Below, piece by piece: positions 29,497 to 51,242 of a stretch of 64,000 nucleotides of DNA; position 1 is the first letter of the stretch; every line of letters starts with the position of its first letter. The DNA is from Roseibium aggregatum (GTDB taxonomy: Bacteria; Pseudomonadota; Alphaproteobacteria; Rhizobiales; Stappiaceae), in assembly GCF_014692675.1 (NCBI RefSeq), contig NZ_JABFCZ010000010.1, positions 62,001 through 126,000 of the forward strand, read 5' to 3'. The position numbers were made by a program, and so were the translations under genes. The notes under the pieces are model-generated. The model was not told the DNA's origin and made no database searches. It saw nothing but the letters and a program-made list of their open reading frames with translations.

Positions 29497-30522
<1,026 letters not shown>

Positions 30523-50747: not shown

Positions 50748-50939
50748 CTAATCCAGCTCTATCCGTCCCTTGACCTCGTGGACGACGCCCGCGCCCTCGA
50801 TGGTCAGCGTCATCTTCGCCTCGAGTTGACCGCTTGTCAGTCCCGCCTTGCGCACGTGTTCCTCGATGGCCTGCTGCGATGTCACGCCGACCTGCTTCAG
50901 GAACTTGCGCATGGACATGTTGAAATTGTCATTGTTCAT
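50748..50939 (-). CDS. DUF6494-family small protein (formate dehydrogenase operon)
   Basis: A 63-residue protein MNNDNFNMSMRKFLKQVGVT followed by SQQAIEEHVRKAGLTSG, the family annotated DUF6494. ATG 50939 follows GGGAGGG at ten bases, better than the upstream ATG at 50981. Function unknown. It follows a 135-bp gap that contains three 21-nt-spaced direct repeats, so it may be the first gene of a second transcription unit. Confidence 0.82.
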   Translation of the reverse strand: MNNDNFNMSMRKFLKQVGVTSQQAIEEHVRKAGLTSGQLEAKMTLTIEGAGVVHEVKGRIELD

Positions 50940-50983
50940 TTTATCGATTCCCTCCCAAATCCAACCCGTCCTTTCTGACAAAG

Positions 50984-51032
50984 TGATTCAGGTTGTTGAG
51001 GCACTGATTCAAGCACCTTCGGAGCTGATTCA
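50984..51032. promoter_or_regulatory. Three TGATTCA direct repeats with exact 21-nt period
   Basis: TGATTCA occurs at 50984-50990, 51005-51011 and 51026-51032 (TGAATCA on the minus strand). The period is 21 nt, two helical turns, so all three lie on one face of the DNA. They sit 45-95 bp upstream of the DUF6494 start and downstream of the small membrane protein gene, in the only sizeable gap in the lower part of the operon. This looks like binding sites for a regulator acting cooperatively. Confidence 0.65.
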
Positions 51033-51074: not shown

Positions 51075-51242
51075 TCACATGTGTTCGCCCGGCCGTTGTC
51101 CCATGCCGGGATCAAGCCGGACTGCATCATGACCGGTCGTGTAGACGGCCATGGAGGAATAATCGAGCTGTCTCGTCAAAACGTACCAGGCCGCCACGCC
51201 GATCACGGCCATGGCACAGATCCCTGAGATGAAGGCTTTCAT
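51075..51242 (-). CDS. 55-residue membrane protein of the formate dehydrogenase operon
   Basis: Begins MKAFISGICAMAVIGVAAWYVLT, a single membrane helix, followed by a 32-residue periplasmic tail (DYSSMAVYTTGHDAVRLD...). Its ATG overlaps the stop of the WD40-cytochrome c gene as ATGA, strong evidence that it is translated. I do not recognise a family. The position suggests a small subunit or anchor of the cytochrome. It is too short to be called by length filters. Confidence 0.75.
   Translation of the reverse strand: MKAFISGICAMAVIGVAAWYVLTRQLDYSSMAVYTTGHDAVRLDPGMGQRPGEHM

Follow-up and report, generated by a model that had tools for sequence, protein, structure and literature searches.

Phased GANTC arrays on the terminus side of Hyphomicrobiales chromosomes, with a possible role in chromosome organisation

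Inside a formate dehydrogenase (fdh) cluster of Roseibium aggregatum, three identical heptamers stand in strict register, and this raises the question of whether they switch the genes beside them or serve some other purpose. In the window (the whole stretch of 64,000 nt analysed here), TGATTCA was located on the plus strand at 50984-50990, 51005-51011 and 51026-51032, with start-to-start distances of 21 and 21 nt, which confirmed the spacing given by the original prediction. The array sits in a 135-nt gap running from a small ORF to the DUF6494 gene, both on the minus strand. Because this small ORF trails a WD40/cytochrome c gene, the predicted location, ahead of DUF6494 in a gap of the fdh cluster, was also correct. 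The features of the locus are as follows.

51026..51032, minus strand: array unit 1, TGAATCA, containing GANTC (window sequence; kept in relatives)
51005..51011, minus strand: array unit 2, TGAATCA (window sequence; kept in relatives)
50984..50990, minus strand: array unit 3, TGAATCA (window sequence; kept in relatives)
51012..51025, minus strand: spacer 1, resembling the second half of the 21-nt unit (RTTTSTSAAS) only weakly (column frequencies)
50991..51004, minus strand: spacer 2 (GTGCCTCAAC), partial second-half match (column frequencies)
50970..50983, minus strand: right half after unit 3 (CTTTGTCAGAAAGG), good match to RTTTSTSAAS except for the first base
50946..50950, no strand: extra GANTC, 39 nt from unit 3, out of phase and near the DUF6494 start, not a unit
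50748..50939, minus strand: DUF6494 protein, 63 aa (PF20104, from Pfam), downstream of the array
51075..51242, minus strand: small ORF, 55 aa, upstream of the array

A Pfam search with the small ORF gave no match. Its product has a hydrophobic stretch at the N-terminus and ends in ...AVYTTGHDAVRLDPGMG, an ending that is kept in relatives.

Taken singly, TGATTCA shows no enrichment in the window, with 5 matches where 7.07 would be expected. Triples of identical 7-mers at equal spacing with dissimilar spacers occurred 0.075 times per window in 40 dinucleotide shuffles, none of them AT-rich. Eight such triple rows are present in the real window: the array at 50984-51032 supplies one, and the other seven come from a hexanucleotide tract at 29.5-29.8 kb and from a second repeat at 46.9 kb. 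The hexanucleotide tract (29507-29772) consists of about 43 copies of CCGTTG with 74% matches. Across the genome (5.66 Mb), TGATTCA-N14-TGATTCA was found at three places, with none for the reversed control: the window itself (contig C11), a second triple at C64:134718-134766, and C97:91643-91670. When mismatches were allowed, the last of these became a triple (91622-91670) and more clusters appeared at C40, C60, C43 and C97:88652. The neighbours of the own-genome arrays, named from a reading of translations and not from database matches, are yjbQ-like and DUF465-like genes, a FemAB-like gene, a HIT gene, a ycjX GTPase gene, a hydroxybenzoate hydroxylase-like gene and an alpha/beta hydrolase. 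Sites before other molybdenum or formate genes, which the original prediction proposed to look for, were not found among the own-genome array sites read. The own-genome excess at distance 21, taken from an 874-kb sample, includes hand-picked stretches (the window and L007).

In related genomes the same exact pair was found 58 times, in 35 of 121 genomes, and the reversed control gave 0 in all 121. Because only 35 of these relatives hold the exact pair, many genomes must have few arrays or degenerate ones. A scan of spacings from 12 to 42 gave 54 distinct pairs at 21, 10 at 42 and a mean of 1.9 at the other 29 spacings, with 17 identical copies of one 36-mer in genome G054 counted once. This 36-mer, bounded by TGATTCA and lying in several cases at contig ends, is probably the end of an insertion element. 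The array is confirmed as real, well above chance and conserved. Chance is ruled out by the reversed controls, the spacing scan and the shuffles, and an ordinary tandem repeat by the differing spacers.

How far these arrays extend was assessed at several taxonomic levels. Of the 297 genomes searched from the order Hyphomicrobiales, 16 hold TGANTCA triples (control 0), and arrays range from two to eight units, the eight-unit array being held by G086. In a class sample of 190 genomes, the triple matched only in the own genome (G000) and in one 0.6-Mb genome, and a TGANTCA pair at 21 nt was found in 0 of 149 genomes of Caulobacteraceae, a family recognised via CtrA identity (87%). The named genome collection yielded at least 117 triple matches and viral sequences at least 32, most of them true minisatellites of other phyla. 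Among the matches listed, at least 38 triple loci were of low identity, and in 14 of these, from Hyphomicrobiales or a proteobacterial MAG (RHIZO2), the motif fits: Afipia (3), Bosea/Boseaceae (3), Cohaesibacter (2), Mesorhizobium, Nitratireductor, Xanthobacteraceae, Ancalomicrobiaceae, AFS057535 and RHIZO2. The other 24 listed loci (Bacteroidales, bacilli, Treponema, Gemmataceae, Lysobacteraceae and others) were judged by eye to be AT-rich coding sequence or imperfect repeats. In Bacteroidales MAGs (JAGNRX01, DUQY01; L136, L140, L160, L165, L212 and others), imperfect 21-nt TGATTCA arrays are numerous and spread over different contigs. No convincing array was found outside Hyphomicrobiales in the genomes searched, and a literature search for an already described array of this kind found none. 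In G113, G056, G064, G045, G043 and G038, TGATTCACGTGAAACA, which we take to be one letter off the usual parS sequence, has a further TGATTCA no more than 45 nt after it; this was regarded as coincidence.

Read on the minus strand, the unit is about TTGAATCARTTTSTSAAS (also given as about TTGAATCARTTTSTSAASNAS), and its core is GANTC, the CcrM methylation site, present in all units. Among 84 distinct units, N is A in 79, and letter preferences extend beyond TGAATCA into the columns that follow (R, T, (T), T, s, T, S, A, A/G, S, n, a, s, T), so that a second half, TTTSTSAA, is also conserved. Earlier column frequencies, with a similar result, drew on 52 of the 54 distinct pairs, two pairs from G018 being left out. 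At 220 phased flanking positions beside 55 distinct arrays, an intact GANTC occurred 12 times against 0.43 expected, whereas GAATC with one of its four fixed letters changed occurred 5 times against 2.7 expected; orthology among some of the arrays means that not all of these counts are independent. In the 874 kb sampled from the own genome, GANTC is depleted to about 0.3 of expectation (902 sites against 3050 by base composition), as is expected for a CcrM genome. A CcrM gene was not found in the sampled 15% of this genome.

Retention in place was followed at the DUF6494 gene. Among 30 DUF6494 loci read, eight (the own locus and those of seven relatives) have the same small ORF upstream, and seven of these eight have two or three GANTC sites spaced by exactly 21 nt, with differing spacers; in the eighth, L102, no GANTC pair at 21 nt was found. 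The original prediction would have been refuted by absence of the repeats from relatives with the same gene order, and six of the seven relatives keep at least two GANTC at this distance. In 22 DUF6494 loci with different neighbours, no such pair was found in the 230 nt read. Arrays also lie inside a FemAB-like gene, downstream of genes and in intergenic places, many being intergenic. In ycjX, an in-frame pair is present in 17 loci of families f1, f13 and f44, all selected for holding the pair, and the in-frame copies fall in variable loops of both ycjX and the FemAB-like protein. The serines of the ycjX arrays are encoded by TCA in 34 of 34 cases against a fraction of 0.127 elsewhere, a figure that carries no weight because the loci were picked by that very sequence. 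Heptad protein coding (LNQFxxx) as the cause of the period was ruled out, since the ycjX frame is GAA-TCA and intergenic copies exist.

Positions along the chromosome were measured from the gene for the DnaA C-terminal domain, with dnaA taken as a proxy for the origin. The 25 array positions from 11 genomes lie between 0.51 and 0.88 of the distance from dnaA to its antipode. Grouped by neighbouring genes, partly by reading, they form 12 independent loci, and all 12 are above 0.5, in the terminus-side half (0.5^12 = 0.0002; KS P = 0.002). Several relatives from the genus of the window (G044, G005, G034, G003, G017, G042, G026 and G009) have two or three strong DnaA C-terminal domain genes in long frames. 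The second locus of G044 would move to 0.15 if its other DnaA-like gene marked the origin, and G017 lies at 0.80 with gene 1186 taken as dnaA or at 0.86 with the best-scoring gene. Outside the 12 loci, the array of G100, whose contig is not closed, lies some 0.45 away from dnaA, and G062 (0.89) and G042 (0.85), also left out, fit the terminus side if their contigs are closed. The count also leaves out G490 and G018, because dnaA and two of three arrays (G490) or the arrays (G018) are on different contigs, and the one pair of G003. The window's own locus is placed through its G018 orthologue, at 0.63 or 0.90 depending on contig orientation. Wherever position could be measured well by this proxy, the arrays share a terminus-side place and not a pathway.

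Altogether, the arrays occur at unrelated genes, inside ORFs and on the terminus side, and the one in the fdh cluster is therefore not best read as an operator of the fdh accessory genes. We put at about an even chance that the arrays are cooperative binding sites of a chromosome-organising protein and not a switch for those genes. The window array is one member of a set confined to Hyphomicrobiales in the genomes searched, with two to eight units per array and a handful of arrays per genome. A spacing of two turns puts the same groove of each unit on one face of the helix, as for cooperative multimers, and the protein would bind the units side by side on that face. Once bound, it may act on the chromosome, for example by holding the terminus region at the division site, in the manner of MatP and Caulobacter ZapT. 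CcrM methylation of GANTC, which would change when the locus is replicated, might also gate binding, given that terminus-side GANTC sites are described as half methylated only for a short time (PMC3667746). MucR has been listed among proteins that shield GANTC sites from CcrM (PMC5172544).

As for the binder, the leading candidate, by analogy, would be the ihfA-linked MerR-family protein, a putative ZapT homologue. In the own genome, ihfA (L078:2216-2527) is followed by a MerR gene (PF13411, 1.3e-22; L078:2548-3180). ZapT of Caulobacter crescentus is described as an ihfA-linked MerR protein with 10 ChIP sites that are biased to the terminus and mostly within ORFs, and with low sequence specificity in vitro (PMC7188993). 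Like these sites, the arrays are few per genome and on the terminus side; the copies in ycjX and the FemAB-like gene lie in ORFs, and many others are intergenic. The account of the ZapT sites, in its passages on the ChIP peaks, gives no consensus (PMC7188993), whereas the arrays have a motif, one that is absent from the 149 Caulobacteraceae genomes, from which it follows that Caulobacter ZapT does not use it.

Several known systems resemble the arrays in part. In a comparison using the matS letters, the arrays did not class as matS. They are like matS sites bound by MatP in lying across the terminus side independently of gene function, a trait described for MatP/matS and ZapT peaks alike (PMC7188993, PMC7858052). 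However, matS sites are 13-mers, in contrast to tandem 21-nt direct repeats around GANTC, and MatP is described as confined to Enterobacteriaceae and Vibrionaceae (PMC7188993). The MerR-like BldC of Streptomyces binds direct repeats head to tail, a variable number of them being occupied cooperatively through a MerR-type domain, but the repeats occupied by its protomers measure 9 bp, lie a single helical turn apart and are found at promoters (PMC5859096), whereas the arrays have a 21-bp period and are chromosome-wide. CcrM-associated intergenic repeats (CIR elements) are alphaproteobacterial repeats with a conserved GANTC; they are about 110 bp long, with long inverted repeats, and are described as not intragenic (PMC2229807), in contrast to short direct repeats that also lie inside ycjX and the FemAB-like gene. 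SeqA-type clusters of Dam sites in E. coli are helically phased methylation sites that serve as a binding platform, but they depend on another methyltransferase, and the arrays have a second conserved half-site.

The nearest rival is the local one, in which a dedicated transcription factor on the three units upstream of DUF6494 controls this gene and those following it, with the other arrays as its regulon. Cooperative regulators typically have phased sites in tandem, the array lies 45 to 93 nt upstream of the start codon and is kept in six of the seven relatives with the same ORF, and some other arrays are also intergenic. Nevertheless, arrays inside the coding regions of ycjX and the FemAB-like gene and downstream of genes, the terminus-side clustering without a common pathway, and a gap in which a weak scan found no sigma70-like promoter speak against this reading, and we regard it as unlikely. 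From the original prediction, the two-turn spacing and the look of a cooperative DNA-binding array are retained, but not the role of a local regulator at this locus. The proposal of a separate promoter for the fdh accessory genes found no support, in view of the same arrays at unrelated loci and inside ORFs, the lack of an array in the 230 nt read at the 22 DUF6494 genes with other upstream neighbours, and the shared terminus-side place. A purely epigenetic role, in which methylation of a GANTC cluster sets GcrA-dependent transcription, would account for GANTC in every unit and for the intact GANTC kept at phased flanks, and GcrA binding is described as methylation-dependent, including that of Brucella and Sinorhizobium GcrA (PMC3667746). 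GcrA acts at promoters, however, and many arrays are within genes; moreover, plain methylation sites do not need the conserved second half TTTSTSAA, and N in the unit is almost always A. This reading is improbable.

Two further explanations are weaker still. A dispersed mini-repeat, a mobile element like Rickettsia RPE that is now functionless, would explain why one element recurs at unrelated loci, within genes as well as between them, and why copies stand in frame in variable loops, as 21 is a multiple of three and insertion would keep the frame. The copies, however, have in common only the periodic motif, with no surrounding backbone seen by eye, and at orthologous sites the spacers have diverged around a retained motif, the reverse of what neutral decay would give; this origin is slightly more improbable than the GcrA-dependent one. 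An identity as IHF sites is suggested by unit columns 3 to 8, where AATCAR resembles the opening half of WATCAR-N4-TTR, the IHF consensus, and by column 15, which reads A in 73 of the 84 units. The second half should be TTR, but only 8 of the 84 units have its middle T; moreover, with a footprint of about 35 bp, IHF could not occupy adjacent sites 21 bp apart at once, so that this reading is very improbable.

The preferred reading, cooperative sites of a chromosome-organising protein, can be given a more specific and tentative form, on balance doubtful though somewhat likelier than the local operator: a multimer of the ZapT-homologous MerR protein, seated on CcrM sites phased at two turns, might tie the terminus side to the division machinery, with replication and CcrM toggling the sites between half and full methylation. 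A literature search found no sequence-defined terminus-domain site outside Enterobacteriaceae and Vibrionaceae. If this form were true, the arrays would be the first sequence-defined terminus-domain sites of Hyphomicrobiales and would supply a ZapT protein's missing recognition sequence. A motif readable from sequence would open terminus organisation to direct tests in Cohaesibacter, Bosea, Mesorhizobium, Afipia and the genus of the window, and it could link the organisation of the terminus in Hyphomicrobiales to CcrM methylation.
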